A stretch of 64,000 nt of DNA from Burkholderia pyrrocinia (GTDB taxonomy: Bacteria > Pseudomonadota > Gammaproteobacteria > Burkholderiales > Burkholderiaceae). The notes beneath the pieces are model-generated. The model worked only from the letters and a program-made list of their open reading frames with translations, made no database searches and was not told the origin of the DNA. The stretch spans positions 3,162,001 to 3,226,000 of the forward strand of contig NZ_CP024903.1 of assembly GCF_003330765.1 (NCBI RefSeq), given 5' to 3'. This document shows positions 18,269 through 33,749 of this stretch, one piece after another. Position numbers and translations under genes: made by a program. The first letter of the stretch is position 1, and each line of letters begins with the position of its first letter.

Positions 18269-18293
18269 GTTCCAGCCCCCTGGTGAATCCTGT

Positions 18294-18318
18294 CGGCGAT
18301 CCCGCGGCCGGATCGCCG
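18294..18318 (+). terminator. Porin terminator hairpin
   Basis: CGGCGATCC / GGATCGCCG, a 9-bp perfect stem with a 7-nt loop, 25 bp after the porin stop; no clear U-tract. Confidence 0.6.
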
Positions 18319-18457
18319 GACGCCAGTGCTTGAAGGTGTATTCGGCTGTCATGTCGCTGTCTCCGGACTGACGGCCGACATTCGCAGAAGAGCTGGCCGC
18401 GACACGGTTGCCCCGCATCAGACCCGTCACGCACCGCACTTCTCGTCGCACGCGCAC

Positions 18458-18474: not shown

Positions 18475-18629
18475 GACTCGCGACGCAATCCTTCGTACGC
18501 TGTTCTGACTCTTCCGCGCGCCCGATTTCTCCGCGGGCGCCGCTTCGCAGGATGAGGGAGGTGCAGGCGCCACAAGCGTCGTCACTCAGCAGGGTGTTTT
18601 GCCAACGATAAACCGTGAAAGGAACTGCC

Positions 18630-19184
18630 ATGCCTGAAATTCTGAGTACCTACTCCATCATCGATGTCCTGATCGCGTTCGATGTCGAGGAAATCCTGAG
18701 AAGGAACAACAATTCGCTCAGTACGAATTCGAGTCAGCCGACCTCGCTCGGGAACAACCCCGATACCGTCTTCATGATCACCACGCTGGCGAACGCGGCG
18801 TATGGCTATAGCCAGGGCTCGCAGGGCGAGGGCGGCGGCAATTTGCGGATCAAGGCCGAAGTCAACGACTTGATTCACTGGCGCACCGTGTCGCTGACCG
18901 ACACGGCAGACTACAAGTGCTTCCTGTATCGCCTCACGCCGCGCGGCGCCAATCGGCTGGGCAATGTTTCGTACCTCACCGCCAACATCACCGAGCCTTA
19001 CCCGGCCCAGGGCTGGCCCGAGAACAACCAAGTGAATGAAGAGCCGCGCGCGGACTACTACGCGGAAGCCCGCGTGCGCAGTCCCGGCGACGAAACCTAT
19101 TCGTTTGTCGTCGCCATTTACGACCGGCATGCGCAACTGAAGGGCTACGTCACCTGGGATCCTTTCATCGGCATCAGCAGTTGA
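18630..19184 (+). CDS. aidA: AidA/PixA-family inclusion-body protein
   Basis: A 184-aa soluble protein with an all-beta look: a MPEILSTYSIIDVLIAFDVEEIL start, FMITTLANAAYGYSQGSQGEGGGNL and FVVAIYDRHAQLKGYVTWDPFI. This is the AidA/PixA ('inclusion body protein') family. In Burkholderia and Ralstonia, AidA is strongly quorum-sensing-controlled and in B. cenocepacia is needed for nematode killing; its biochemical role is unknown. The ATG at 18630 has AAGGA at good spacing; a GTG 15 bp upstream is less likely. It ends at a very strong bidirectional hairpin facing the TOMM operon. Confidence 0.85.
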   Translation: MPEILSTYSIIDVLIAFDVEEILRRNNNSLSTNSSQPTSLGNNPDTVFMITTLANAAYGYSQGSQGEGGGNLRIKAEVNDLIHWRTVSLTDTADYKCFLYRLTPRGANRLGNVSYLTANITEPYPAQGWPENNQVNEEPRADYYAEARVRSPGDETYSFVVAIYDRHAQLKGYVTWDPFIGISS

Positions 19185-19322: not shown

Positions 19323-21560
19323 TTACAGAAACAGTAGCGCCGGATTCAACTCCGGTTCGCCGCACGGCTGCGCGCGCCAACGCAGCTCCACCGGAACCGA
19401 ATAAAGCCGTCGCGCGCCAAAACGCGGCCAGAAATGGCACAGCCCCGGCGCGATGACTTGCACCACGGACAAGCCGATATCGGGCCGCGTCTTGTCGACG
19501 ACGAGCACGTCCATGCCGGCCGCCGCGATGCGCCCGACGCAATGCGCGAGCGCCGCCGGCAACGACGCAGCGTCGATCGGCCGCCACGTCGAGCGTGTCG
19601 TGCCGCGCACGTCTGTCGCCGGATACAGAAACCCGGTTGCTGAAAGTTTTTCGCGATCCCACGGGTGCGGCGCATCCGCTGCGACATCGAGCAACTGGTT
19701 GACTTCGGTCAGAGCCCGCTGCACCGCGATACGACCGTCCGGATGACAGCCGAAGCCGATCGAGAAGCGCCCGTCTTGCGGATTCTCCGCCAGCGCGGCC
19801 ACGGTCGGCACCCCGAGATCGGTGGTAATGTCGAGCGCCCACAAACGCCATCCGAGCGTCGCGTATTCGCGCACGAGCGCATCGAAATACGGATCGTCGA
19901 AACTCGCGAGATCGATGCCGGGGCGCGGGATCCGGTTGTACCACCAGATCGCGACCGCATCGCGCTCGATCAACTCGAGCATGCCTTGCAAAATCGCCTC
20001 GTCGACGCTCGATCCCGCCGCGCAGCCGTTGGGATTGTGTACGCATGCGGCCGGTGCCTGCGCACTGTCGGGCGTTTCCGCATAGCAGTAGCTCAGCGGT
20101 ACGAGCCGGCGCCTGCCGGTCACGAGCGACCAGGCAGGCGTCCAGTCGATCACGTCGCTCGCCGTGAAGCGCGGCGGCACCTGCTTTCGCACATCGCGGG
20201 TCAACGCGTTGATTTCATCGCGCGCGTCGAATTGCCGTTCGCTGAACTGCTGAAGATCGTTCACGTGAATGGGTGCAGCATCACAAGCCGGGTCGGCGAG
20301 CAGGCTTTCGATACTTCCGGTCAACGTCGCCTCGTCGCCTTGATACACGCTGCTGAATCGTTCGAGCGCTTCGCACAGCGCGCTCACGCGGGCTTGATCG
20401 TCGGTGCGGCCCTTGCCGGAGCAGATCCGGTCGAACCGGTTGCTGCCCGGTACGGCGGCCGGGCACACGAGAAAACCCGACGCATAGACCTTGCGCAAGC
20501 CCGCGTGTCGCTTCGGCATCGGATGCAGATACGCGATCGCGCCGCTGACCGGCGAGATCAGATGCGCATGGCGCTCGAACACCTGTTGCGGATCGGCGGT
20601 CCGGTAGCCGCCGTCGGTGCGCGCCAACGGCGCATGATCGGCGAGCCGCGGCGCGCGCGCCGCCTGCTCGCGCATCCACGCGGGATTGCCGCAGCACGGG
20701 CATTGCGGACGCCTGAGCACGCGGTGCCGCTCGGCAGCCAACGTGTCGATGCGCTGCGCCACGATATGCGTTTGCGACCGTTCCGATGCCGTGCGGTTGA
20801 CCGCAATCTGCTCGACCGTCGCCGCCACGAGTGCCGCTGCGGCCGCGGCCCCGGCACGCGAGGCGGCCGGCGGCACGCGCGTTGCGTCGCTGCCGTGATG
20901 GCGCGCAAGCAGCGCCTCGACGGGCCGGTTGATGCGAATCCAGTAACGCACGCATTCGATGCAGGGCGCGTCCGCAAGCGCGCCGCCGCCGGCCAGCAAC
21001 GGCCCGATCAGCGTCTGCACGCCACTGGCCGCCACGACGAGCAATGCCCCGCCGCGCGCCACCACGCGGGCAGCGCACGCGGCGAGATCGTCGCGGTCGT
21101 GCGTATCGGTGATCGCGACGGTCAGTTCGGCGTCCGGCACGACGTCGATGCCGGCCATGTCGAGCGCACGCCTGAGCGCCGCATCGTCGGCGCCGAACGC
21201 TTCGACGGCGACGCGCAGATGCGCGATGCGCGCACAAGCCGCGTCGCCGTCGAGCCCGGCGCGCTCGAAGAAGCCGCGCGCCGCATCGTCGTCGTGCGGC
21301 ACGTCGGCGCGCACGTACCCGCGACGCACCAGATGATCGAGCCGCGCGAGCACGTCCCATTCACCGAACGTGCCGGCGAGCGATGCCACGGTCTCGGCGA
21401 TCGTCATCCGCGCGCGCAAGCAGGCGGCGATCCGCACGAAGATCGCGCCGGACAGCATCGCGCGTTTGAATTCGTCGACAACGAACAGGGTCTCGGGCCC
21501 CGCATCGAGCACGAGCAAATGCGGTTTGAAGCGCAACACGCGCGAAAGGTCATCGAGCAT
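19323..21560 (-). CDS. Fused TOMM cyclodehydratase (C-domain + YcaO)
   Basis: A 745-aa RiPP-modifying enzyme. Residues ~1-300 are the E1-like/partner domain of azoline-forming cyclodehydratases, with a tetracysteine zinc site: Cys200/Cys203 (CIEC) and Cys287/Cys290 (CPCC). Residues ~330-745 are the YcaO domain, with ATP-binding segments SGKGRTDDQARVSALCEALER and MLELIERDAVAIWW. It would activate backbone amides with ATP to cyclise Cys/Ser/Thr side chains of the two precursors encoded just upstream. The C terminus (ELNPALLFL) lacks the usual PxPxP tail. No flavin dehydrogenase gene is in the operon, so products may stay at the azoline level. Confidence 0.92.
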   Translation of the reverse strand: MLDDLSRVLRFKPHLLVLDAGPETLFVVDEFKRAMLSGAIFVRIAACLRARMTIAETVASLAGTFGEWDVLARLDHLVRRGYVRADVPHDDDAARGFFERAGLDGDAACARIAHLRVAVEAFGADDAALRRALDMAGIDVVPDAELTVAITDTHDRDDLAACAARVVARGGALLVVAASGVQTLIGPLLAGGGALADAPCIECVRYWIRINRPVEALLARHHGSDATRVPPAASRAGAAAAAALVAATVEQIAVNRTASERSQTHIVAQRIDTLAAERHRVLRRPQCPCCGNPAWMREQAARAPRLADHAPLARTDGGYRTADPQQVFERHAHLISPVSGAIAYLHPMPKRHAGLRKVYASGFLVCPAAVPGSNRFDRICSGKGRTDDQARVSALCEALERFSSVYQGDEATLTGSIESLLADPACDAAPIHVNDLQQFSERQFDARDEINALTRDVRKQVPPRFTASDVIDWTPAWSLVTGRRRLVPLSYCYAETPDSAQAPAACVHNPNGCAAGSSVDEAILQGMLELIERDAVAIWWYNRIPRPGIDLASFDDPYFDALVREYATLGWRLWALDITTDLGVPTVAALAENPQDGRFSIGFGCHPDGRIAVQRALTEVNQLLDVAADAPHPWDREKLSATGFLYPATDVRGTTRSTWRPIDAASLPAALAHCVGRIAAAGMDVLVVDKTRPDIGLSVVQVIAPGLCHFWPRFGARRLYSVPVELRWRAQPCGEPELNPALLFL

Positions 21561-21592
21561 CGTCTGGTTCCGTGCGGCGGGTCAACAAACAT

Positions 21593-21625
21593 CGCGCGGC
21601 CCGGGCAGCCGGCCCGGGCCGCGCG
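21593..21625 (-). promoter_or_regulatory. Intra-operon GC hairpin, candidate attenuator
   Basis: A 14-bp perfect stem (CGCGCGGCCCGGGC) with a 5-nt loop, in the 91 bp between the second precursor gene and the YcaO gene. A leaky terminator after small precursor genes would give more precursor than enzyme, as is known at other RiPP loci. There is no U-tract, so readthrough is plausible. Confidence 0.6.
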
Positions 21626-21651
21626 ACGGTGCGCGGTTCGGCCGCGCGGGG

Positions 21652-22014
21652 TCAGCAGCAGGTGAACAGGTAACTCGGCCCGGCGTCGCAGTATGCCGCG
21701 AGTGCAACGGCCTCTTCGTCCACGCTCGTCGGTTGCTCCGGGATGCCGACCGTCATCACGTTGCGCGGTAGGCTCCAGCTCCCGTGGCCGTTACCGTGGC
21801 TCGTCCAGCCATGATCGCCGTCCGTCTTGACGACCTCGATGTCGATGATCCACGGACACTGGTAACCGAAGTATTTCGCGAGCGTCTCCAGCGGCTTCTC
21901 CAGCAGCTCACCCTTGAACTCCGGGTTCCGCCATGAAAGCGCGATCGCACGCAGATAGACCTTCTGAAACTCCAGCATCGATTCGAGCGTCGGATTAGCG
22001 TTGTCCTTTGCCAT
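21652..22014 (-). CDS. TOMM precursor protein 2 (core ends in Cys-Cys)
   Basis: A 120-aa precursor of the Burkholderia BMA_0021/BMA_0022-like TOMM family (recognised by context and general layout, not by a search). The leader, residues ~10-60, shares with its upstream paralogue the pattern LEF/Y...RAIALxW...F...EL...P(V/L)E(A/T)L..YF/HFxY. The C-terminal core is CDAGPSYLFTCC: three Cys, one Ser and one Thr as potential cyclisation sites. AGGAAAA precedes the ATG; the start is 15 bp after the stop of precursor 1. Confidence 0.85.
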   Translation of the reverse strand: MAKDNANPTLESMLEFQKVYLRAIALSWRNPEFKGELLEKPLETLAKYFGYQCPWIIDIEVVKTDGDHGWTSHGNGHGSWSLPRNVMTVGIPEQPTSVDEEAVALAAYCDAGPSYLFTCC

Positions 22015-22029
22015 GTCGGTTTTCCTGGG

Positions 22030-22374
22030 TCATTCCATGATGGTGATGTGGTTCGCGTTGTAGGCGGCCAGCGCCTGCGCGAATTGCGCTTCGTCCGCCG
22101 GCGCGGGCGGCAGAAACAGCGTGAGCTTGTTTTTCCGGCCGCCCGTCCAGTCGCCGTTGACGCTCGGCGTCCAGGCCGACGATTTGACCTGCACCTTCAA
22201 GTCGAGCTTGAACGGGAAGTGATAGTCGAAATGCGCGCGCAATGCCTCGACCGGATCGGCCTCGAGTTCGTCGAGAAACGCCGGGGAATGCCACGCGAGG
22301 GCGATTGCCCGGATGACGGTTGCCCGGTATTCGAGAAATTGTTCGTACGTCGGTAATCGAAGATCCTTGCTCAT
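22030..22374 (-). CDS. TOMM precursor protein 1 (core without cysteine)
   Basis: A 114-aa protein paralogous to precursor 2: TYEQFLEYRATVIRAIALAWHSPAF and ALAAY line up with SMLEFQKVYLRAIALSWRNPEF and ALAAY. After ALAAY it ends NANHITIME, with no Cys or Ser and only one Thr, so the presumed core is nearly devoid of cyclisable residues. The ATG at 22374 follows GGAGAG; a longer upstream reading lacks such a site. It starts 33 bp after the kinase/cyclase stop. It could be a partner protein, a chaperone-like decoy or a precursor modified differently. Confidence 0.8.
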   Translation of the reverse strand: MSKDLRLPTYEQFLEYRATVIRAIALAWHSPAFLDELEADPVEALRAHFDYHFPFKLDLKVQVKSSAWTPSVNGDWTGGRKNKLTLFLPPAPADEAQFAQALAAYNANHITIME

Positions 22375-22407
22375 CGGTATGCTCTCCTGAATGACGAATG
22401 GAACCAC

Positions 22408-25400
22408 TTACGGCAACGACTGCAACATCGCCCCGGCGAGCCTGGCGATGCGGCCCATGCCCGCCGTTGTTGCAATTTCGACTGCGCGCCGGCACGCATC
22501 CAGCGCGGCCACGCCGCCGCAGCGCGGATCGGCCCGGCGCAGGTACTCGCACTTCTTCAGCCACAGCTGCGCTTCGTAATACCGCTCTCCGGTCGACTCG
22601 CACCATGCGAGGCATTGCTCGACCTGCGCGAGCGCGGCGTGGTAGTCGCCGCGCGCGGCATCCAGCTCGGCAAGCAGCGACGCGTAGTAGGTCATCCCGA
22701 GCAGGCCGCCCGACTGCCGCTGCGCATCGAGATGCGCGACGACGCCCGCGCGATCCCCTTGCGTCCACGCATGAATGATCGCGGCGTAGTGCCCGACCGC
22801 GCGCAGCCGATGCACATCCGACAGGCGGAGAATCGCTTCCGACAGGGTGCGGGCCGCGTCGCGATCGCCCGTCAGCTGGTACATGCGCGCGAGGTACATC
22901 ATCGTGACGCCGAGCGTCGGCAAATGGTCGAGGCAGGTCGCGCAATACACCGCGTCGCGCGCCATCGCGAGCGATGCGTGCGGATCGTCGTCCATGCACC
23001 AGCGCACGCTCGCGAGCGACGCCATCGTCCACGCACGCGTATCGAGCCCCAGGATGCGCCGATGGTCCGCGTCGCGCCGCACGTCGTAGCCGGCCAGCAC
23101 CGCGTCGAACGCGGCGCGGGCGCGCGCATAGTGGCCGTCGACCCACAGGCTCATGCCGCGCATCGCGTCCGCCGCGACCTGAGCGCCGGCGTCGCCGCGC
23201 TCGGTCGCGAGCGCGTCGAGCCGCATGCTGATCCCACGCACCGTGGGACGATCGCCGGCGACGTGGTAGTAAGTCGACAGCGTCCAGAGCGCGCTGATCT
23301 CGAGTTCCTGGTCGTCGACCGTCTGCATTTGCCGCAACAGCTGCTCCGCATGCTCGCGCACCTGCGGATCGGCCCAGCCGAACCGGGCCATCGTCGCGTG
23401 CGTCAACGTGGCGCGGATGCGCGCGCTGTCGTGTTCGCGTTGTGCGTAGTCGGCGTCGACAAGCCAGTCGAACACCGACTGCCCATAGCGGATCGCGTCG
23501 TCGTAACGGGAACGTTCGAGTGCGCGACGCGCCGCGTCGATGCCGTGGGCGATCGCGTCGGCGAAGGCGCCCGAGCGCGCGAAGTGCCCGGCGACGCCGA
23601 ACGCGTGCGCACCGGCCTCGCGATCGGCTTGCGCGACCAGCGCATGGCCGACGCACGCATGGTTGCCGCGCCGCACGGCGGGCGGCATCGATTCATACGC
23701 CGCGTCGCGAATCAACGCGTGGCGGAACGAATAGAACACGCGATCGCGCCGATGTTGCGCGTACAGGATCCGCTCTTCGAGCAGCAACCGCAGATGCGCG
23801 TCGAGCGTGGCCCGATCATGCGGCGATGCGTCGGCGAGCAGTTGCGCATCCACCTCGAGCCCGATGGTCGCGGCGAGCTGTGCGGTGTCGCGCGCGTCGT
23901 CGATCCGGTCGAACGCGAGACCGAGCATGCCGCCGAGGCTGAGCGGAAGCGGATAAGGGTCCGTCGCCGGCGGCCCCGCGAGCGAGCCGTCCACGCCGCT
24001 CATCGTCAGCTCGCGCGCGACGGCCTCGATAAACAGCGGGATGCCCGCCGTACGATGGGCGAGCTGGTCGAGCCAGGCCGGATCGAGCGCGCCTTGGCCC
24101 AGACACGCCGAAATAAGGCGCTGCGCGTCGTCGCGCGGCAGGCGGCGCAGCACCAGGCGTTCGGTCGCACCGCGCCAGCGCCCGAGCTTGTCGGGGCGCG
24201 ACGTGAACACGATGCCGAGGGCCGCTGCGCGCGGCGAGCGCTGCAGGTACGCGAGAAAATCCTCGGTCGAGCGGTCGATCCACTGGACGTCCTCGACGAC
24301 GAGCAGCACCGGAGCGCCGTTGCCGAGCGACACGATCAGTTGCTCGAGGACGTCGAACAGCGCGTGCTGCTCGCGCGCACTCGACCACAGGAGCCCCTTC
24401 GCCTCGCAAGGCAGCCCCAGCCAGGTCGCGAGCGCGACACGGGCCGCCGCATGATCGCAATCGAGCGGCGCGATCATGGTGTCGATCGCCGCGAGCGCGA
24501 AACCGGCCGGACAATCGGCGTCGATATGCCAATGCGCGCCGATGAACCGCAGGATCGGAAACAGCGCGTGATTCTCCCGCTCGGGCAGGCACCCGCAATG
24601 CGCGAAGGCGTGGCCCTGGGTCCGGACCGCCTCGCACAGCTCGTGCACGAGGCGCGACTTGCCGATTCCCGCATCGCCGACGACGAGCCGCGGCACGCTG
24701 TGCGGCACCGGCTCGCCGCCCATCACGCGACGATGTCGTGCGAGCGTCTCCTGCCACGCACGCAGCAGCGCGTCGAGCTCGCGCGCGCGGCCGACCATCG
24801 GCGCCCGCATGCCGGCGTCGAGCGAATCGAACGGCGTATCGGCGCGACGCTCGCCGAGCAATTCATGAACCGGCTGCGGCACGAGGCCCGCCCGCGCCAG
24901 CCGCAACGCACTCGGCCGACAGTCGGCATGCCGTTCGAGCGCGAGCCGCGCATCGTCGCTGATCAGAATCTGCCCGGGCCCGGCGAGCCGCAGCAGCCGC
25001 GATGCCGCGGCGGGCGTCGAACCGCCCGACATGTGCGACGCATGCGCGAGAACCTGCCCGACGTGAATCGCGGCGGCCACTTCGACGCGCCAGCTTTCGC
25101 CACCGGCGCGGCCGCCGGCAGCCGCAGACACCGGCAGCCGTGCGCGATCGGCCACCCGCACCATGTCGAGCGCCGCGCGCGCCGCACGGCGCGCGGGCCG
25201 GTCGATATCGCCTTGCAGGCCGAAATGGAACAGCAGCGTGTCGCCGAGCCGGCCGCCTGCGTGCGCGCCATAACCGACGGCGATGTCGGCACACTTCGTC
25301 AGCCATTGCTCCTCGTAGCCGTCGAGCAAGTCACCGTGATCGGCTCCGGCGTAGCGTTGCCGGCCTTCTCCGGTGATCGTCACACAACAACACAGCGTGG

Positions 25401-26436
25401 TGATCTGCCGGTACTCGCCAGGCGTTGCGATCGTCTCGCTGCGCGTGACCAGGCGCGGACGCGTCTGCCGGCTGGCGCGGCTGGCATCGAACTGGCCGAC
25501 GAGCGCGGCAAAGTTGAGCGCGCGGAACTGCTCCGCGAGTTCATCGGCCGACGCGGCGCGCTGCGCCGGATTCTTGCTCAGCGCGCGCCGCAGTACCGAG
25601 CCGAGCGGATGCGATGCGATCGACGCAGGGAGCGCGACATCCACCGGGCTGAGCTGCTGATAGAGAATGTCGGCCACGCTTGCGCCGTGCATGACGACGT
25701 CGCCCGTCAGGCATTCGATCACGACCAGGCCCCACGCATAAAGATCGCTTCTGGGCGTCGGCGGCTCGTTGCGCAATTGCTCCGGTGCGCAATAGGGCGG
25801 CGAGCCGAGCACCTCGGTCACCAGCGTCGCGGTCTGGCGCGCGATCTCTTCCGTGCCGGGCAACAACGCGCCGATGCCGAAATCGAGGAGCTTCGCGTGC
25901 GGCCCGTCATCGGCCATCGTGATCACGATGTTCTGCGGCGTCAGATCCCGATGCACGATGCCCCGCCGATGCGCGGCCGCGAGCGCGTCGAGCACCTCCG
26001 TCATCAGTTGGCCCGTGTCGACGGCCGACAGCGGCCCCTCCGCCGCGAGCCGGTCGCGCACGGTCCGGCCCTGTACCAGCTCGAATACGGCGAACAGCCG
26101 CCCGTCGGGCGCTTCCCCCTTGTCCAGCAGCGCCACGATGTTCGGGTGCCGCAGCGCCTCGCACAGGCTCGTCTCGCGCCGAAAGCGCGCACGCTGGGCC
26201 GCGCGCTCCGCGGCGGTCCGCGCGACATCGTCCCGCATCAGCTTGATCGCGACGTCTTGTCCCGTCTCGCCGCAGGTCGCGCGAAACACCACGCCGTTGC
26301 CGCCTTCGCCGAGCAACGCGCCGAGCCGGTAGTGCCGCTTGCCGGCAAGCTCCGCGAAAGGTACGGCGGGCTGCCGCGGTTCACGTGCTTCCGGCACGAC
26401 GGGCGCGCGAGGCGCGGCCGGTTCTCGCGCGTTCAC
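22408..26436 (-). CDS. TOMM-system Ser/Thr kinase / cyclase-like / ATPase / TPR fusion protein
   Basis: A 1342-aa multidomain regulator. Residues ~36-300 are a Hanks-type kinase, complete: glycine loop GEGGNG (43-48), VAIK Lys65, HRD 162-164, DFG from 186, APEQ. Residues ~344-525 resemble a class III nucleotide cyclase (GDTLLFHFG at 398-406), but where active enzymes have the first metal Asp the sequence is LCCCVTITG, so the cyclase is probably inactive. Residues ~545-900 are a STAND-type ATPase (Walker A GDAGIGKS 587-594, Walker B LLVVED 711-716). The rest is helical repeats of TPR type. This layout matches the known 'TOMM system kinase/cyclase fusion' family. It overlaps the FHA gene by 4 bp. 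Confidence 0.92.
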   Translation of the reverse strand: MNAREPAAPRAPVVPEAREPRQPAVPFAELAGKRHYRLGALLGEGGNGVVFRATCGETGQDVAIKLMRDDVARTAAERAAQRARFRRETSLCEALRHPNIVALLDKGEAPDGRLFAVFELVQGRTVRDRLAAEGPLSAVDTGQLMTEVLDALAAAHRRGIVHRDLTPQNIVITMADDGPHAKLLDFGIGALLPGTEEIARQTATLVTEVLGSPPYCAPEQLRNEPPTPRSDLYAWGLVVIECLTGDVVMHGASVADILYQQLSPVDVALPASIASHPLGSVLRRALSKNPAQRAASADELAEQFRALNFAALVGQFDASRASRQTRPRLVTRSETIATPGEYRQITTLCCCVTITGEGRQRYAGADHGDLLDGYEEQWLTKCADIAVGYGAHAGGRLGDTLLFHFGLQGDIDRPARRAARAALDMVRVADRARLPVSAAAGGRAGGESWRVEVAAAIHVGQVLAHASHMSGGSTPAAASRLLRLAGPGQILISDDARLALERHADCRPSALRLARAGLVPQPVHELLGERRADTPFDSLDAGMRAPMVGRARELDALLRAWQETLARHRRVMGGEPVPHSVPRLVVGDAGIGKSRLVHELCEAVRTQGHAFAHCGCLPERENHALFPILRFIGAHWHIDADCPAGFALAAIDTMIAPLDCDHAAARVALATWLGLPCEAKGLLWSSAREQHALFDVLEQLIVSLGNGAPVLLVVEDVQWIDRSTEDFLAYLQRSPRAAALGIVFTSRPDKLGRWRGATERLVLRRLPRDDAQRLISACLGQGALDPAWLDQLAHRTAGIPLFIEAVARELTMSGVDGSLAGPPATDPYPLPLSLGGMLGLAFDRIDDARDTAQLAATIGLEVDAQLLADASPHDRATLDAHLRLLLEERILYAQHRRDRVFYSFRHALIRDAAYESMPPAVRRGNHACVGHALVAQADREAGAHAFGVAGHFARSGAFADAIAHGIDAARRALERSRYDDAIRYGQSVFDWLVDADYAQREHDSARIRATLTHATMARFGWADPQVREHAEQLLRQMQTVDDQELEISALWTLSTYYHVAGDRPTVRGISMRLDALATERGDAGAQVAADAMRGMSLWVDGHYARARAAFDAVLAGYDVRRDADHRRILGLDTRAWTMASLASVRWCMDDDPHASLAMARDAVYCATCLDHLPTLGVTMMYLARMYQLTGDRDAARTLSEAILRLSDVHRLRAVGHYAAIIHAWTQGDRAGVVAHLDAQRQSGGLLGMTYYASLLAELDAARGDYHAALAQVEQCLAWCESTGERYYEAQLWLKKCEYLRRADPRCGGVAALDACRRAVEIATTAGMGRIARLAGAMLQSLP

Positions 26437-27434
26437 GAGTAGTGGACGACCGGGTCAGGCGCCGGACGATGCACGCCGATTCGCGGCTCGACGCCCGGCA
26501 CCGACTGGCACTCGAGGTGCTCGCCGCGCATGATGCGGAACGGAAAATCGCCGAAGCGCACGCTGCCGCGCCGGCGCTCGACGAGCTGGCTCGCGTCCAG
26601 CCCCGGCAGCGCCGCGAGCTGGCTCCGGGCGCGGTGAATCTGCACGTTGAGATGGGACGTATCGATGCCGAGCATGCGTGCCAGCCGGTCGAGTTCGATC
26701 CAGCCTTGCGTGGCGGCGTCGTAGCCGGCCTGCATGTCGGCCGAGCGTGCCCGGGCGAGCGTGACGAGGCTGTAGTGATGGACGCGCTCGCCGAGGTCGA
26801 CCACGCCGCCGCGGACATGCAGCAACATGCGCACGTGCTCTTCGTTCCGACTGACGAAGAATTCGAGCAACTGCGCCGGCACGGCCGGATCGGCGGGCGC
26901 GGCGAGCATCATCGTCGAGCCGCTGCGCACGAGCGCCAGGCGCCACGAGAAGTCGCCGGTCGATACTTCATCGCCGTCATGGAGCGCGCGCGGCGGCAAC
27001 GTGTCGTCACACAGCCATTCGCCGGCCGGCGACCGGGCGATCGTGACCGGCTGCGCGGCGTGGGCAAGCAGGATCTGGCTCGGCGCGAGCACGATCGGAT
27101 GCGTGGCGCCCCGTATCGGCCACAGCGTATCGGCCGGATCGTCGAGCGCATCGACGCGCCAGGGTGCGATACCCGTCCTGCCGAACCGGATCACGTCGCC
27201 TTGTTGCAGCACCGCATGCTCGCCGTCGCGCAGCGGCACGCCCGATACCGACGTGCCGTTGCTGCTGTGATCGTGGAGTTCCCACACCCCGCCGATCCAG
27301 CGGATATGGGCATGGACACGGGACACCGACGCATCCCGGATGACCGTGTCGCAGCGCGCTGCATCGCGGCCGAACACGTGATACGCGCGGAGCAGGCACG
27401 TTTCTCCGGAAGCATCGTTCTTGAGTATTGCCAT
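26433..27434 (-). CDS. FHA-domain protein with C-terminal winged helix
   Basis: A 333-aa protein from the ATG at 27434 (a TTG at 27494 would extend it). The FHA phosphothreonine-binding domain is complete: FGRD (21-24), SRVH (38-41) and the SNG loop (58-60). The middle is unassigned. The C-terminal ~100 residues (YSLVTLARARS, GWIELDRLARMLGI, LNVQIHRARSQL, ERRRGSVRFGDFPFRI) look like a winged-helix DNA-binding domain with an RRRG wing. Its stop overlaps the kinase start (ATGA), so both are made together. Inferred: the kinase phosphorylates itself or a partner, and this FHA protein reads the phosphothreonine and regulates transcription of the operon. Confidence 0.85.
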   Translation of the reverse strand: MAILKNDASGETCLLRAYHVFGRDAARCDTVIRDASVSRVHAHIRWIGGVWELHDHSSNGTSVSGVPLRDGEHAVLQQGDVIRFGRTGIAPWRVDALDDPADTLWPIRGATHPIVLAPSQILLAHAAQPVTIARSPAGEWLCDDTLPPRALHDGDEVSTGDFSWRLALVRSGSTMMLAAPADPAVPAQLLEFFVSRNEEHVRMLLHVRGGVVDLGERVHHYSLVTLARARSADMQAGYDAATQGWIELDRLARMLGIDTSHLNVQIHRARSQLAALPGLDASQLVERRRGSVRFGDFPFRIMRGEHLECQSVPGVEPRIGVHRPAPDPVVHYS

Positions 27435-28184
27435 GGCTGCCCCGTGTCGGATTCGCCCGGATCGCTCGAGTGACGCATCGACGCTGCCGGGCAAACGATT
27501 GATTCACTGATCGCGAACAATGTCGACTGTTCGCCGCCTCGTTACCTGTTTTTTCGTCAGCCTGCTTTCGAATCGTTGCTCATCGGGCATGCGTTATTTC
27601 AGCCAATTGAATTATCGACCGTTTTGTTGTTTTAAAATCGAGCAACCTGATGAAAATCCTGCCAAATAAATTCGCACACCGCAACCGTAATTCCAATTTC
27701 CGAGTTTTATATTGCAATGCTTTACATTCTCGATGAATTTCCGGGTCGCAAATAAAGGGTCGAACATCTTAATCGGCGCGCAAACCACGGCGGGACATGC
27801 GCTGGCCGAACATGTTCACATTGGATGACGGGGTTGGTTTAATCACCTTTGCCGCCGCGGAAATTTTGTTTGGCAAACCGGAAATAAATTAAATCATTTC
27901 GACAATTTAAATAATGATCGACGGTGTTTTGGCAATCGTCATTACTTAACTTATTGAGAAATTCCGGTACGCCACATCGGATGTTTCGCGATGTCATCGG
28001 CTGGCGATTGAAGCAGGCACGGCGCCGTTCATTCGGCGGCGTCGGACGCTGCGCGGCTTCCGGAGCCGATCACGTTCCGCCAGTGCTTAAGCAATCGTTA
28101 AGCAGGCGGCCAACATAATCGCCCGAATCAGCGTTCCGGCCCGCCGGAATGACGTTTTCATGACAACCGCACAGGGAGCGCCCG
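27435..28184. promoter_or_regulatory. 750-bp AT-rich divergent regulatory region
   Basis: Separates the leftward TOMM operon from the rightward RND operon. Roughly 27,540-27,960 is conspicuously AT-rich against its surroundings (runs such as TTGTTGTTTTAAAATC, AATAAATTAAATCATTT, AATTTAAATAATGATC), the kind of DNA bound by H-NS-type silencers. No convincing gene. A GCTTAA-N7-TTAAGC dyad lies at 28085-28103, near the RND operon. Confidence 0.55.
28085..28103. promoter_or_regulatory. GCTTAA-N7-TTAAGC inverted repeat
   Basis: A perfect 6-bp dyad with 7-bp centre, 82 bp upstream of the TTG start of the efflux operon; also contains AAGCA direct repeats. A plausible operator for the RND genes. No local TetR/MerR regulator gene accompanies it. 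Confidence 0.4.
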
Positions 28185-29588
28185 TTGTCCCGCTTATCTC
28201 AGACAGCGTCGCCGCGGCTCGTACGCACGCTCGTCGTAGGTGCCGCGTCGTGCGCATTCGCGCTCGGCGGCTGCACGGCCTATCGCCCGCAGCCGCTTGC
28301 CGCGCATTCGACATTCACGACGGCCGTCGAGCTCGGCAGGCTGCGCATCGACCCGGCGAAAATGCCGCTGCCGGAACTGGCCGCGCATCGCTTCGATCCG
28401 TCCGGCGGCTTCGACATCGAGGACGTTGCGATGCTCGCGGTCGCGAACAATCCCGATCTGAAACTCGCGCGCGACGATCTCGGGATCGCGCAGGCGCAGG
28501 CGTATTCCGCGGGGCTGCTGCCCGATCCGCAACTGTCGGTATCGAGCGATTATCCGGGCGCGGCCGGCCTCGAGCGTGCGTTCAACTACGGCCTGAGCAT
28601 GGACGTGATGGCGATCGTCACGCGCAATGCGAACAAGCGCTCCGCCGACGCGACCGTGCGCAAGACCGATCTCGGCCTGCTTTGGCAGGAGTGGCAGGTT
28701 GTCGCGCAGGCGAAGCAGCTCTATACGAAGGCGCGCTACGAAGATGCGGTGCTGCCGCTGCTCGCGCAGACGCGCGATCTCGGCGCGACGCGTTACGAAC
28801 GGATCGCGCACGCGCGGCGGGCCGGCAATGTGACCGACGACACCGTCACCGTCGCGTCGGCCGCCTACGGCGACGCGCGCAAGCAATACGACGACATGGT
28901 CCGGGCGCGCGAACAGACCCGTCACGATCTGAATGCGCTGCTCGGACTCGCGCCGGATGTCGAACTGCGGCTCGCCGGCTCCGATCAGGTGGTGCCGGTG
29001 ACCGACGCGACGCTCGACGCCGCACTGACCGAATTGCCGAAGCGGCGTCCGGACCTGATCGCGCTGCAGGCCGGCTACGACGCGCAGGAACAGAAGTACC
29101 GCGCGGCGATCCTGAACCAGTTTCCGAGCCTGAACGTCGGCTTCAATCGCGCGCGCGACACGTCGGGCATCTATACGACCGGCTTCCAGATTGCGCTGAG
29201 CCTGCCGATCTTCAACCGCAATCGCGGCAACATCGCGATCGAGCAGGCGACCCGCCAGCGGCTCGGTGACGAATACCAGACCCGGCTGAACGCCGCCTAT
29301 GCGGACATCGCGCATCTGCGCACCGATGCTCGACTCGCCGCGCAGCAGCTTGCTCAGGACGAGGCCGCGTTGCCCGCGCTCGAGCAGGCGGCCGCGCATG
29401 CGGAGCACGCGTACGCCGCGCACGACATCACGCTCGGGCAGGATACCGACGCGCAGCTCGCCGCGCTGACGAAGCGGATCGACGCGGCCACGCAGCGCGA
29501 TGCACTGGCCGAGCAGCGCATCGGCCTGCAGGCGCTGCTCGGCAGCGCGGTCCCGGATGCCTTTTCCACCGATTCCACCCAGCGTTGA
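28185..29588 (+). CDS. TolC/NodT-family outer-membrane efflux lipoprotein
   Basis: A TTG start after AGGGAG gives 467 aa. The N terminus is a lipoprotein signal with lipobox LGGC (cleavage before Cys30). Two OEP repeats of long coiled-coil helices follow, each with the ALLGLAP/ALLGSAV type turn. It forms the outer-membrane channel of the tripartite pump encoded by the next two genes. First gene of a tight three-gene operon (4-bp gap to the next). It faces away from the TOMM operon across the AT-rich region. Confidence 0.9.
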   Translation: MSRLSQTASPRLVRTLVVGAASCAFALGGCTAYRPQPLAAHSTFTTAVELGRLRIDPAKMPLPELAAHRFDPSGGFDIEDVAMLAVANNPDLKLARDDLGIAQAQAYSAGLLPDPQLSVSSDYPGAAGLERAFNYGLSMDVMAIVTRNANKRSADATVRKTDLGLLWQEWQVVAQAKQLYTKARYEDAVLPLLAQTRDLGATRYERIAHARRAGNVTDDTVTVASAAYGDARKQYDDMVRAREQTRHDLNALLGLAPDVELRLAGSDQVVPVTDATLDAALTELPKRRPDLIALQAGYDAQEQKYRAAILNQFPSLNVGFNRARDTSGIYTTGFQIALSLPIFNRNRGNIAIEQATRQRLGDEYQTRLNAAYADIAHLRTDARLAAQQLAQDEAALPALEQAAAHAEHAYAAHDITLGQDTDAQLAALTKRIDAATQRDALAEQRIGLQALLGSAVPDAFSTDSTQR

Positions 29589-29592
29589 CCTC

Positions 29593-30687
29593 ATGCCAGC
29601 CGTCCTGAATCGCTTTACCTGCCGTCGCGCGGCCGTGCTTGCCGCCGCATTTGCCACACTCACGCCGTTCGCCGGCCCCGCGCGGGCCGACGAACCCGTG
29701 TCCGCCGCGGTCGATACCGTGCGCGTGCAACGCGCGCCGATCTCGCAACAGGTGCGTGCCTATGGCGTCGTCGCCACATCGTCAGCCAGCGTCACGTCGG
29801 TGAACCTGCCGTACACGGCGCGCATCCGCAAGGTGCTCGTGTTGCCCGGCCAGACGGTCGCACGCGGCGCGCCGCTGGTCGTCGTGCAGGCCGATCCCGC
29901 TGCGGTGCTGGCCGCGTCGCAGGCCTCGAGCGGGTTGACGCTCGCGCGCGGCGAACTCGCACGTACGCGCGCACTGCTCGACGACGGCCTGGCGACGCAA
30001 TCGCAGCTCGCCGCTGCGCAGAAGGCGCTCGACGATGCGCAGCAGGGGCAAGCCGCGCAGCGGCTGATGGGCGTGCGGAACGGCGACGTGACGATCGCCG
30101 CGCCGTTCGCCGGCGTCGTGTCGCAGCTTTCCGCACTGCCGGGCGACCAGGTGCAGGCGGGCGCGACGATTGCACAGCTGGCGGCGACGGGCGGCGCGTC
30201 CAGCCGTCAGGCGAACGTGACGCTCGGCGTCGAGCCGTCCGCGGCCGCATCGATTCACGCGGGCGATACGGTCGTGCTGCACGGGCTGTCCACCGCGCTC
30301 GCACACGCGGCTCCGGCAGGACAGGTCATCGTCGCGGGCGCGTCGATCGATCCGCAGAGCCAGCTCGTGGACGTCGGCGCGAACGTGCCGCTCGGCGGCA
30401 CCGCATTCATCCCCGGCACCCGCGTAAGCGCCGACATCGCGACGCAGACCGGCACGTGGTGGGTCGTGCCGCGCGCCGCCGTGCTGCGTGATACGAAGGG
30501 CGCGTACGTGTTCCAGGTCACGCCGAAGCATGCCGCGCATCGCGTCGATGTCGCAGTGCGCGTCGAAAGCGGCGACCGTTACGGCGTGGACGGCCCGCTG
30601 AATGCATCGGAGCCGCTCGTCGTCACCGGCAACTACGAATTGCAGGACGGGATGACCGTGCGTTCTGCCGGAGGCACGCACCCATGA
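29593..30687 (+). CDS. RND periplasmic adaptor (membrane-fusion protein, HlyD/AcrA type)
   Basis: A 364-aa protein with a signal peptide (RRAAVLAAAFATLTPFAGPARA) and mature start DEPVSAAVDTVRV. Biotinyl-lipoyl half-motifs (RIRKVLVLPGQTVARGAPLVVV and MGVRNGDVTIAAPFAGVVSQL) flank a short helical hairpin (LARGELARTRALLDDGLATQSQLAAAQ... region). A beta-barrel and membrane-proximal domain follow. It couples the inner-membrane pump to the outer-membrane channel. The earlier in-frame ATG was rejected because it lies inside the preceding gene and destroys the signal peptide. Confidence 0.9.
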   Translation: MPAVLNRFTCRRAAVLAAAFATLTPFAGPARADEPVSAAVDTVRVQRAPISQQVRAYGVVATSSASVTSVNLPYTARIRKVLVLPGQTVARGAPLVVVQADPAAVLAASQASSGLTLARGELARTRALLDDGLATQSQLAAAQKALDDAQQGQAAQRLMGVRNGDVTIAAPFAGVVSQLSALPGDQVQAGATIAQLAATGGASSRQANVTLGVEPSAAASIHAGDTVVLHGLSTALAHAAPAGQVIVAGASIDPQSQLVDVGANVPLGGTAFIPGTRVSADIATQTGTWWVVPRAAVLRDTKGAYVFQVTPKHAAHRVDVAVRVESGDRYGVDGPLNASEPLVVTGNYELQDGMTVRSAGGTHP

Positions 30688-33600
30688 ATGTCGGGCAATG
30701 GATGCAGATGCACCGGCGATCGTTGCTGTTCGTCGTCGCGCTACTCGCGATCGCCGGCGCGCTGACGGCTTTCCGGCTGCCGATCTCGCTGTTTCCGAAC
30801 GTAGCGTTTCCGCGCGCCGTCGTGTCGCTCGATGCGGGCGACCGGCCTGCCGAGCAGATGGCGACGCTCGTGACGATGCCGGTCGAGGAGGCGCTGCGGC
30901 GCGTGCCGGGCGTGCGCGACGTCGAATCGAAAACGAGCCGCGGCTCGGCGGAGATCTCGCTGAATTTCGACTGGGGCACCGACATGGCGCAGGCGACGCT
31001 GCAGGCGCAGTCGGCGATTTCGGAGATCCTGCCGTCGATGCCGGCCGGCACGACGATGCAGGTCAAGCGGATGGATCCGACCGTGTTCCCGGTACTGGCA
31101 TACAGCCTCACGTCGTCGCGGCAGTCGCTGTCGCAGTTGCGCGATCTCGCGCAATTTCAGTTGCGGCCGCTGCTGTCGTCCGTCGACGGCGTGGCGCGTG
31201 TCGAAGTGACGGGCGGTGCGCAGGACGAATTGCAGGTCGACATCGATCCCGCGCGGCTCGCCGCGTACAAGCTGTCGGTCGAGGACGTGTCGAAGGCGAT
31301 CGGCGCGGGCAACGTGCTGACTGCGGCCGGCCGAATCGAGGATCACTACAAGCTGTATCTCGTCGTTGCCGACACGACGATCACGTCGCTCGACACGCTT
31401 CGCAATACGGTCGTTTCGTCGTCGGGCGGCAACCAGGTACGCGTCGGCGACGTCGCGACGGTATCGCGCGGCACGGTTCCGCAATGGATCCGCGTGACCG
31501 CCGACGGCCAGGACGCGGTGCTCGTGAACGTGTTCCAGCAGCCGGGCGCGAACAGCGTCGCGATGGCCGCGGCGATCCGTGCGAAGCTTGCGGATTTTCA
31601 GAAGCAGATGCCACCCGGCGTGCATCTCGCAAACTGGTACGACCAGAGCCAGCTCGTGATCGCGTCCGCGTCGAGCGTGCGTGATGCAATCCTGATCGGC
31701 GTCGTGCTGGCTGCGCTCACGCTGTTCGTCTTCCTGCGCAACTGGAAGATCACCGCGATCGCCGTCGCGCTGGTGCCGGTCGTGATGAGCGCGACGATCC
31801 TGCTGCTCGACGTGTTCGGCATGGGCTTCAACATCATGACGCTCGGCGGGATGGCCGCGGCGGTCGGGCTCGTGATCGACGACGCGATCGTGATGATCGA
31901 ACACATCGCGCGGCGCATGCGCGAGGCGGGCGCGCACGCATTTCACGGCCGCGTGATGAGCGCGGCGCTCGAATTCACGCGGCCGCTGGCGGGCTCGTCG
32001 GCCGCGACGCTGATCATCTTCGTGCCGCTCGCGTTCCTGTCCGGCGTGACTGGCGCGTTTTTCAAGGCGCTGTCGATCACGATGGCGAGTGCGCTGTTCA
32101 TCTCGTTCGTCGTGAGCTGGCTCGCGATCCCGATCCTGTGCGATCACTGGCTCACGCCGGCCGACGCGGAGGAGCATCGCGAGTCGCGCTTCACGCACTG
32201 GCTGAACACGCGTTATGCGACGCTGATCGAGCGCGTGAGTCGCAGGCCGGTGCTCGCGCTCGCGGGTGTGCTGCCGCTCGTCGTCGTCGCCGCGTTTGCA
32301 TTCACGCGCGTCGGCAGCGGCTTCATGCCGTCGATGGACGAGGGCGGTTTCGTGCTCGATTACCACACGGCGCCCGGTACTTCGATCACCGAGACGGATC
32401 GCCTGATGCGCGAGATCGAGACGATCATCCGCGAGAACCCGAACGTGGCGACGTATTCGCGTCGAACCGGGGCGGGCCTCGGCGGCGATCTCAACGAGCC
32501 GAACAAGGGCGATTTCTTCGTGCGCCTGAAATCGGGTTCGCGCGAGCCGATCGACACCGTGATGGAAGAAATCCGCTCGAAGGTCGAGACGAACGTGCCC
32601 GGCGTCAACATCGAGCTCGCGCAGTTGATGGAAGACCTGATCGGCGATCTGACCGCGGTGCCACAGCCGGTGCAGATCAAGATCTACTCGGACGATCCGA
32701 ACGTGCTCGACGCGACCGCGCAGCGCGTGGCCGCGCGCATCGGCAAGATTCCGGGCATCGTCGACGTCGACGACGGTATCAACCCGGCCGGCGACGCGCT
32801 CGATCTGCATATCCGGCCCGACGCGGCCGCCGCCGAAGGCATGGACCCGCAGTCGATCGCACAGCAGGTGTCGAATCTGCTCGAAGGCAGCGTCGCGACA
32901 CAGTTCCAGCAGGGGCCGAAGACGGTCGGCGTGCGCGTGCGGGTGTCGGACGCAATGCGGATGAATGGCACGGGGCTCGGCGCATTGCAGATCCATGCGC
33001 CCGATGGGCACCTGTTCCCGCTCGATCGCGTAACCGATCGCATCACGGTCAGCGGGCAGCCCGAGATCAGCCGCGACAACCTGAAACGGATGGTCGCCGT
33101 TACCGCGCGGATCGACGGGCGCGATCTCGGCTCGACGATCGCCGACGTGCAGCGCGCGCTCGGCGATGCGAACCTGCTGCCGCAAGGCGTCTATTACGAA
33201 CTGGGCGGGCTGTACCAGCAACAACAGATCGCGTTCCGCGGACTGATCGCCGTGTTCGGCGCGGCGGTCGCGCTGGTATTCGGGCTGCTGCTGTTTCTCT
33301 ACGAACGCTTTCGCGTCGCGCTCGCGGTCATGGCGATGCCGCTGTGCGCGACCGGCGCGGTGTTCATCGGGCTGTGGGCGACGGGCATCGAGCTCAACAT
33401 CTCCGCGATGATGGGCATGACGATGATCGTCGGTATCGTGACCGAGGTCGCGATCTTCTACGTATCGGAATTCCAGGGGCTCGTGCGCGACGAAGGGATG
33501 GCGCCCGATGCCGCGTTGCTCGCGGCGGGCCGCAACCGGCTGCGGCCGATCGCGATGACGACGATCGCGGCGATCCTCGCCCTGCTTCCGCTCGCGTTCG

Positions 33601-33749
33601 CGCTCGGGCAGGGCTCGGCGATGCAGCAGCCGCTGGCGGTGGCGATCATCTCGGGGCTGATCGTGCAACTGCCGCTGGTGTTGCTGGTACTGCCGGCGCT
33701 ATTGCAGTTGCTGTTGATCGAAAGAAGACCGCGCCGCCAGACACGCTGA
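30684..33749 (+). CDS. RND inner-membrane efflux pump
   Basis: A 1021-aa proton-driven transporter of the AcrB/CzcA superfamily. One N-terminal membrane helix, a large periplasmic loop, a block of helices with the proton-relay DD pair in TM4 (GLVIDDAIVMIEHIARR), a second periplasmic loop and a second block (GLLLFLYERFRVALAVMAMP...). It overlaps the adaptor gene by 4 bp (ATGA). The TM4 motif has DD, without the extra Glu of classical metal-efflux CzcA pumps, so an organic substrate is more likely. It may export the neighbouring TOMM product, an inference from position only. Confidence 0.93.
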   Translation: MNVGQWMQMHRRSLLFVVALLAIAGALTAFRLPISLFPNVAFPRAVVSLDAGDRPAEQMATLVTMPVEEALRRVPGVRDVESKTSRGSAEISLNFDWGTDMAQATLQAQSAISEILPSMPAGTTMQVKRMDPTVFPVLAYSLTSSRQSLSQLRDLAQFQLRPLLSSVDGVARVEVTGGAQDELQVDIDPARLAAYKLSVEDVSKAIGAGNVLTAAGRIEDHYKLYLVVADTTITSLDTLRNTVVSSSGGNQVRVGDVATVSRGTVPQWIRVTADGQDAVLVNVFQQPGANSVAMAAAIRAKLADFQKQMPPGVHLANWYDQSQLVIASASSVRDAILIGVVLAALTLFVFLRNWKITAIAVALVPVVMSATILLLDVFGMGFNIMTLGGMAAAVGLVIDDAIVMIEHIARRMREAGAHAFHGRVMSAALEFTRPLAGSSAATLIIFVPLAFLSGVTGAFFKALSITMASALFISFVVSWLAIPILCDHWLTPADAEEHRESRFTHWLNTRYATLIERVSRRPVLALAGVLPLVVVAAFAFTRVGSGFMPSMDEGGFVLDYHTAPGTSITETDRLMREIETIIRENPNVATYSRRTGAGLGGDLNEPNKGDFFVRLKSGSREPIDTVMEEIRSKVETNVPGVNIELAQLMEDLIGDLTAVPQPVQIKIYSDDPNVLDATAQRVAARIGKIPGIVDVDDGINPAGDALDLHIRPDAAAAEGMDPQSIAQQVSNLLEGSVATQFQQGPKTVGVRVRVSDAMRMNGTGLGALQIHAPDGHLFPLDRVTDRITVSGQPEISRDNLKRMVAVTARIDGRDLGSTIADVQRALGDANLLPQGVYYELGGLYQQQQIAFRGLIAVFGAAVALVFGLLLFLYERFRVALAVMAMPLCATGAVFIGLWATGIELNISAMMGMTMIVGIVTEVAIFYVSEFQGLVRDEGMAPDAALLAAGRNRLRPIAMTTIAAILALLPLAFALGQGSAMQQPLAVAIISGLIVQLPLVLLVLPALLQLLLIERRPRRQTR

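Follow-up and report, generated by a model that had tools for sequence, protein, structure and literature searches.

What does an operon make in which a predicted azoline-forming enzyme and two precursor-like proteins are joined to a large kinase and an FHA protein, and what part do the signalling proteins play in it? The question is raised by five leftward genes at positions 19323–27434 (minus strand) of a 64,000-nt stretch, here termed the window, of the 8.0 Mb genome of Burkholderia pyrrocinia (assembly GCF_003330765.1, contig NZ_CP024903.1). They encode, in order, an FHA protein, a kinase (KIN), two precursors, P1 and P2, and a fused RRE/C-YcaO cyclodehydratase (Table 1). The answer favoured here, with a little more confidence than doubt, is that the paired nitrile-hydratase-like precursors and a LynD-like YcaO would yield a fixed-function, azoline-tailed P2, likely intracellular, with its supply probably governed by the kinase acting on the FHA protein.

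A preliminary description of this DNA had taken the genes for a single operon-like unit, a thiazole/oxazole-modified microcin (TOMM) operon for an azoline RiPP (ribosomally synthesized and post-translationally modified peptide) with FHA and kinase genes. Coordinates, profiles and repeated gene order agree on the unit, and its TOMM identity is borne out by profiles, cross-genus order and conserved YcaO motifs. Curated NCBIfam TOMM models exist for four of the genes, and all pass. The profile search that the description had proposed places the YcaO protein (251.6 bits with TIGR03604, cut-off 219.25; 103.5 with TIGR03882, cut-off 36.9), the TOMM kinase (1931.1 bits with TIGR03903, cut-off 705.75) and the BMA_0021-type precursors (TIGR03795; P2 152.3 bits, P1 146.3, cut-off 41) all over cut-off; the FHA gene was read by Pfam (PF00498, 68.6 bits, cut-off 20.7). 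The comparison of gene order that it had also proposed finds FHA-KIN-P1-P2-YcaO repeated in Burkholderia carriers, so the arrangement is not due to chance. In one genome (G027) the operon is divided between contigs (loci L066/L067), and at locus L068 the kinase is broken. The closest named P2 proteins are from cepacia-type Burkholderia species (83–88% identity).

The strongest constraint on the product is seen at the end of P2. The protein ends YLFTCC, and P1 of the window has no Cys. A tail of the form Y-x-F-[ST]-C(-C) is present in 73 of the 75 loci with a precursor match and F-[ST]-C in 74 of them, a count on unselected loci that replaced an earlier tail search in which the motif itself had been selected for. 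The two exceptions are L096, which ends NLFTCC, and L073, a different nitrile-hydratase-like leader peptide (NHLP). The near-invariant tail spans Beta- and Gammaproteobacteria and SAR324. Over 26 loci (325 pairs) the ratio of nonsynonymous to synonymous polymorphism (pN/pS) is 0.446 in the P2 leader and 0.074 in the last six codons, and in P1 it is 0.493 and 0.679, respectively. Of 58 non-motif precursor ORFs, 11 contain Cys; these include some long ORFs, the P2 of L096 itself and genuine P1s bearing one or two Cys (e.g. L068, L069, L120). The model of P2 gives weak matches to proteusin and nitrile hydratase alpha folds, and a search of a viral collection found no P2 relative.

Other TOMMs are bacteriocins, and the name of TIGR03795 assigns this family to them as well. 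It could be supposed that P1 and P2 make a secreted two-peptide TOMM bacteriocin, with the tails cut off, sent out through a housekeeping transporter or one encoded elsewhere, and used to kill competitors. A TOMM bacteriocin would be recognised by a hypervariable core rich in Cys, Ser and Thr; the tail here is short and, across classes, nearly invariant, and P1 of the window is Cys-less with a relaxed tail. The tail invariance and low tail pN/pS, together with the Cys-less, relaxed P1, are more readily explained by a single fixed product than by a bacteriocin that diversifies. Sequence comparison thus suggests a product of fixed function that is probably not a bacteriocin, and the C-terminal Thr-Cys-Cys of P2 is the predicted azoline site. 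The bacteriocin explanation is considered unlikely, even with the suggestion of a two-peptide product in the sections of Haft et al. 2010 available (PMC2887384) in its favour.

An azoline-forming YcaO is expected to end in PxPxP, and the YcaO superfamily is versatile. In this family the C-terminus is N-x-x-x-[LM]-[FYL]-[LVIF] in all 59 distinct relatives (of 73 collected), and PxPxP is found in none. These points speak for an enzyme doing other chemistry (thioamide or amidine formation), or acting on Thr only, with the tail Cys left free. That possibility is very improbable, since the best matches over near full length are heterocyclases and the conserved site is F-[ST]-C. LynD (4v1t) matches aa 8–741 at E 3.1e-108, and the closest solved structures are LynD and TruD, near full length, and then MusD, in two stretches. 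In all 59 relatives G382-K383-G384, E397, E400, R401, N511, E529, E532-R533-D534, T618, E619, Q622 and R692 are identical, residues which we take to be the catalytic ones and which cover the YcaO ATP-site motifs; Q389 is kept in 98% and the four zinc-type Cys in 95–98%. Conservation was read from alignment columns, as simple regular expressions undercounted the motifs owing to variable flanking letters. It is the single YcaO found in the genome.

The operon has, as the preliminary description had it, no dehydrogenase (FMN dehydrogenase included), protease or dedicated exporter, and the best score for a SagB-type dehydrogenase in the whole genome is 43 bits against a cut-off of 78.4. Clustering of the genes flanking 46 TOMM loci (not every cluster was profiled) gave no sixth gene shared across most genera, the top family spanning four of 14 genus labels. 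With no SagB-type dehydrogenase over cut-off and no widely shared sixth gene, the earlier suggestion of a product that is azoline-only and intracellular gains indirect support and no more. The narrow span of the flanking families also counts against a bacteriocin. In its favour, the small protein recurring near Comamonadaceae operons could be an immunity protein, and an RND pump adjoins the operon. The pump (28185–33749, divergent) was tried as dedicated exporter and rejected: none of its three genes has a match at 40 other loci, 28 of which carry the TOMM genes; the flanks compared spanned about 5 kb in most cases and less at contig ends. It is adjacent in the window's genome only, relatives' flanks being partly profiled.

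The family of widest genus span, a protein of about 130 aa, occurs at 21 of the 46 TOMM loci in four Comamonadaceae genera and sits behind FHA in L115 and other Variovorax, Delftia, Paracidovorax and Curvibacter loci. Second widest (six of the 46) is a PixA-like family. In the window a PixA/AidA-like inclusion-body protein (18615–19184, plus strand; PF12306, E 1.1e-30) is convergent with the operon; a homologue has the same place in several Burkholderia loci. In L120 (Dyella) and L142 (Paraburkholderia) one adjoins the operon, and in L089/L090 it is farther off. As it is beside only some loci, it was rejected as an obligatory sixth gene, and its link to the operon may go beyond synteny.

How do the kinase and FHA genes relate to this cargo? 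The preliminary description had called the operon self-contained with its own circuit, which is only half right, the FHA-kinase pair being separable from the TOMM genes. TIGR03795 pairs are present in 26 of 65 genus genomes and 31 of 398 family-sample genomes (4 of 25 genera), and TIGR03795 is over cut-off in 4 of 399 order-sample and 2 of 398 phylum-sample genomes, the own genome being included in each sample; every carrier has two matches. All 26 genus genomes with the pair have the kinase, broken in one (G038). Of 184 confirmed FHA-profile loci, 80 are named. YcaO is present in 45 of the 80, and 37 of the 80 are complete, with precursor and YcaO as well as FHA and a full kinase; some of the incomplete loci are truncated by contig ends. 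Variovorax paradoxus is among the carriers. These 80 take in Variovorax, Delftia, Paracidovorax, Massilia, Dyella, Psychromonas and SAR324; in Comamonadaceae the order is different, with the precursor pair fused and FHA last. Moritella, Pseudoalteromonas and relatives have a full FHA-kinase pair beside quite different genes; so do Polaromonas, Acidovorax and relatives, except that the kinase next to FHA is short.

Within the genus, TIGR03903 is over cut-off without precursors in nine of the 65 genomes. Two of these (L074, L075) retain a full kinase, and in the other seven the kinase is cut at the C-terminal segment or a little way into it. One deletion junction is common to L078, L079, L080 and L082, with its beginning also in L081, so that a single loss is likely. 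In L078–L082 the ratio of nonsynonymous to synonymous substitution rates (dN/dS) is 0.10–0.19 for FHA and 0.25–0.41 for the shortened kinase; medians for FHA in carriers are 0.24–0.26 at dS 0.1–0.5. Judged by the other neighbours elsewhere and by purifying selection after cargo loss, the FHA-kinase pair is a separable chassis. Short YcaO remnants behind the kinase (L075 10717–11061, L077 9660–9839) mark the lost cargo genes. A gene beginning MTAEYT has a remnant in the window (about 18280–18352, minus strand) and is longer, and aldehyde-dehydrogenase-like by eye, at L079/L080.

The patchy distribution, together with the STAND and kinase architecture and strong matches to PADLOC kinase models (PD-T4-6, E 3.2e-68), could be taken to indicate an anti-phage or conflict system, with the STAND kinase as sensor of invasion and the azoline protein as toxic effector. 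Sections of PMC7159879 describe conflict systems of other kinds in which kinases and FHA domains take part. This explanation is quite improbable: the PADLOC matches listed (25 of 32) lie within the kinase domain (aa 17–323), the other four operon proteins have no PADLOC match, and no full system set is present. The same porin-SDR-ADH neighbours are found at 10 of the 40 other loci, whether or not the cargo is present, so in these, at least, the locus does not resemble a shifting island. In B. thailandensis, stationary-phase induction points to growth state. There, the part of PMC12322963 available gives a rise of 2.21 log2 for BTH_I0516, ‘Ribosomal natural product, two-chain TOMM family’, and of 2.08 log2 for the neighbouring BTH_I0515, ‘ABC transporter ATPase’. 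The latter is probably the second precursor, as a P2 homologue (P0010) bears the same ‘ABC transporter ATPase’ name.

Of the fusion that the preliminary description had read in the kinase (kinase, cyclase-like, STAND and TPR), the kinase and STAND parts stand. HRD and DFG are both carried by the window's protein, and by 79 and 80 of 80 kinases, respectively. The cyclase-like part does not have both metal-binding Asp of a class III nucleotidyl cyclase: the window has Cys for the first, which is replaced in 22 of 23 kinases among the aligned rows listed and retained in L071. On this basis the domain is predicted to be inactive as a cyclase. TPR was a label of that description; Pfam gives no TPR match in the kinase.

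By profile scores the C-terminal segment of the kinase appears to follow the cargo and the STAND part the lineage, with crossings both ways. The TOMM-linked set was of 10 kinases spanning lineages (the window, L070–L072 and six of the 80 loci), including L107, which has a precursor and no YcaO match in view. The non-YcaO set was L119, L145, L150, L157, L163 and L168, six of 13 full kinases without YcaO; Burkholderia relics (L131, L136, L146, L160), contig-edge L124, L100 and L162 were left out. Profiles were leave-one-out, with L168 dropped as a near copy. On the TOMM C-terminal profile, the 10 TOMM-linked kinases score 392–611 bits and five without YcaO 42–92, with 7.0 bits for the best shuffled control. 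The ratio of C-terminal to STAND identity, each measured against the window, is 0.69–1.17 for 22 TOMM-linked kinases versus 0.42–0.60 for the six non-YcaO ones (1.00 for recent relics; 1.19 for L100, on a short remainder).

The crossings are seen in two kinases with STAND parts of gammaproteobacterial type and YcaO nearby. L169 (Psychromonas) scores 458 with the non-TOMM and 262 with the TOMM profile in STAND, and 59 and 218, respectively, in the C-terminal segment; for L167 the values are 360 and 243 in STAND and 95 and 154 in the segment. Equal-size profiles left the signs unchanged for both. L145, without YcaO, is the reverse, with STAND TOMM 295 against 209 and only 92 against 33 in the C-terminal segment. 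In the STAND tree L169 and L167 are within a gammaproteobacterial clade (100/100); five of 15 inner branches are supported in each of the STAND and C-terminal trees. Three observations weigh against a segment that follows cargo: the C-terminal tree groups L169 and L167, on very long branches, with L119 and L157 and not with the TOMM set; L208 carries the segment, with no YcaO up to the contig end; and the non-TOMM C-terminal segments are mutually so unlike that their profile is weak. They lower slightly the standing of a wider proposal, which is put forward tentatively and is rather doubtful. In it an FHA and STAND kinase chassis, general among bacteria, would have a plug-in C-terminal reader exchanged with the cargo, the kinase would sense its own azoline-tailed protein, either as unmodified precursor or with its tail finished, and adjust the single upstream region from which that protein is made, and the tail would be a fixed, non-antibiotic azoline group on or near its carrier.

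Several loci give a view of other cargo, all by eye as to gene type. L100, L105 and L106 have subtilisin-like proteases (PatA/PatG-like) near FHA-kinase, with no YcaO in view. At L103, L104, L108, L109, L113 and L147, FHA and a short kinase adjoin a common set of tail-collar-, glycosyltransferase- and GH25-like genes. L209–L212 have FHA, kinases of about 860 aa and, downstream, small convergent genes that look alike, another cargo type. Among loci with YcaO, L159, L167, L169 and L111 have added asparagine-synthetase-, PhyH- and amidohydrolase-like genes, and it is possible that these tailor the same tail.

In the FHA protein the phosphothreonine-binding residues G22, S38, H41 and G60 are invariant among 48 homologues, with R23 and N59 in at least 90%. 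Its C-terminal part has a predicted strand-helix-helix-helix-strand order and weak helix-turn-helix (Sigma70_r4_2) matches in 13 of the 48; PDB sequences and solved structures gave no match to it. Foldseek/VIA gave FHA domains among the matches listed for the model, a missing winged-helix row there being uninformative. The part is putatively helix-turn-helix-like. EmbR, the M. tuberculosis FHA regulator (2fez), tops the FHA match list, level with others; compared with it, the window's FHA domain is N-terminal and its C-terminal domain is unmatched to a known fold. At E ≤ 0.001 the FHA profile, run class-wide, has matches in 169 of 369 genomes, and among the matches listed whole-protein cover is found in only five genomes (own included), the others being to about the FHA domain alone.

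The region upstream of FHA is conserved. TTTGGCAGGATTT, the first 13 bases of the 16-nt box TTTGGCAGGATTTTCA, is present in all 30 cepacia-type loci tested, 228–239 nt before the FHA start, and the box is retained in all nine cargo-less genus genomes. Eight other loci were outside this test, and the four of them inspected (L044, L053, L054, L069) do not have it. A second box, AATGTAAAGCATTGCAATAT, has its core pattern in 24 of the 30. Each matches the genome exactly at a single place; the next best site has two mismatches for TTTGGCAGGATTTTCA and three for AATGTAAAGCATTGCAATAT, and with no second good site, a regulon was rejected. A sigma-54 promoter at the conserved TTTGGCAG box was dropped as the -12 GC is missing (by eye), and a sigma-70 scan gave one site versus 1.2 expected by chance. 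Covariation of the upstream dyad was rejected because of mismatches at the position beside its six constant pairs, so only the dyad itself is claimed.

Table 1. Features of the operon and its upstream region (positions in the window).
Feature	Position	Strand	Size or extent	Family or remark
FHA domain and C-terminal helix-turn-helix-like regulator	26433..27434	-	333 aa	
TOMM kinase/cyclase-like/STAND/TPR-type protein	22408..26436	-	1342 aa	TIGR03903
Ser/Thr kinase domain	25507..26349	-	~aa 30-310	PF00069 E 3.2e-41
Cyclase-like domain	24817..25434	-	~aa 335-540	PF00211 only E 0.036-0.12
STAND-type AAA ATPase	23737..24804	-	~aa 545-900	PF13191 E 5.1e-16; GIGKS Walker A
Kinase C-terminal segment	22411..23724	-	~aa 905-1342	profile scores track cargo
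Precursor-like P1	22030..22374	-	114 aa	TIGR03795; no Cys, relaxed C-end
Precursor P2	21652..22014	-	120 aa	TIGR03795
P2 last six codons, Y-L-F-T-C-C	21655..21672	-		predicted azoline core
Fused RRE/E1-like/YcaO cyclodehydratase	19323..21560	-	745 aa	TIGR03604 + TIGR03882
Upstream box TTTGGCAGGATTTTCA	27651..27666	-		candidate promoter or operator
Upstream box AATGTAAAGCATTGCAATAT	27709..27728	-		conserved
Dyad GCGAAC-N10-GTTCGC, leader region	27513..27534	-		26/30 loci tested
GC hairpin between P2 and YcaO	21589..21629	-	17 pairs	

Within the operon, FHA and kinase overlap, as had been noted, although the sequence reads GTGA and not ATGA. The short gaps that had also been claimed do not extend to P2 and YcaO, which are 91 nt apart with a strong hairpin between them. 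Its energy z-scores are -5.9 to +0.3 (mononucleotide shuffles, 27 loci), and both-side changes occur at five of 12 pairs in 14 sequences, picked from 26 genus loci for a long stem at the hairpin place. Such a covarying hairpin fits one transcript with the enzyme below the precursor. Terminator-like sites overall are no more than chance (7 versus 6.9). Apart from the operon, G+C of the window falls from about 0.67 to 0.54–0.63 in most 1-kb steps of 43001–64000 (0.65–0.68 at 58001–60000), a possible island.

The families had been described as known from Burkholderia TOMM loci, and this holds. In the part of PMC2887384 available, Haft et al. define the NHLP-Burk group (TIGR03795, BMA_0021–BMA_0022; also treated in sections of PMC4603692) with precursor pairs in tandem, one with terminal Cys-Cys, a fused cyclodehydratase and, in the Figure 2 legend, a large kinase, and with fused precursor pairs in Delftia and Acidovorax. 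The window has the same precursors, tandem pair, cyclodehydratase and kinase, and no difference excludes it from the group. Relative to that part of PMC2887384, what is new is the tail invariance and selection, the Cys-less P1, the spread to SAR324 and Gammaproteobacteria, the FHA-kinase pair as separable chassis, the link of C-terminal segment to cargo, the upstream box and the hairpin. The preliminary description had thought product, target and signal undescribed; for the family, no report of product, activity, target or signal was found in the open-access literature, subscription papers being outside its scope. The available text of PMC6997564 has no more than a listed TOMM kinase cyclase transcript, from a myxobacterium.

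The cyanobactin heterocyclases LynD and TruD (4v1t, 4bs9) likewise have RRE, E1-like and YcaO parts in one chain, aligned over aa 8–741. Unlike them, the window has a folded nitrile-hydratase-like leader (theirs is short and disordered), a core without repeats and other C-terminal residues, and its operon has no gene resembling PatA/PatG. The proteusin cyclodehydratases MprC and NstD, in the sections of PMC12455567 available, put azolines on nitrile-hydratase-like leaders as is predicted here, which supports a YcaO reading such a folded leader; MprC serves ten precursors, whereas the window has one near-invariant tail, a two-chain precursor and adjacent kinase and FHA genes.

A course of events can be proposed for the favoured reading of a fixed-function azoline-tailed P2. 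P1 and P2 would form a heterodimeric leader docking on the RRE of YcaO (as proposed for the proteusin MprE7 with MprC in part of PMC12455567), and the P2 Thr-Cys-Cys would become methyloxazoline-thiazoline-thiazoline, unoxidised. The kinase C-terminal segment would read precursor or product, and the kinase would phosphorylate a Thr bound by the FHA domain, with the C-terminal domain of the FHA protein binding the upstream region. The hairpin may keep the precursor level above that of the enzyme, and expression would climb at stationary-phase entry in the window's species too. A metal-binding or signal tail, protein-bound or released by a housekeeping protease, is favoured over a secreted bacteriocin; the end use could be metal binding, a cofactor role or an internal signal. 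PqqA and MftA are cofactor precursors, and in the wider, doubtful proposal the logic of a fixed azoline tail would be like theirs.

As a member of a described family the locus is ordinary; its interest lies in the signs of a fixed product, probably no bacteriocin, and in a proposed reader segment that appears to track the cargo. The family name of TIGR03795 says bacteriocin, while selection and conservation argue for a fixed-function molecule. The C-terminal Thr-Cys-Cys of P2 gives the exact residues for mass spectrometry, possibly in existing proteome data. If the kinase C-terminal segment travels with RiPP cargo, the family would offer a testable model of a STAND kinase wired to a peptide-maturation operon.

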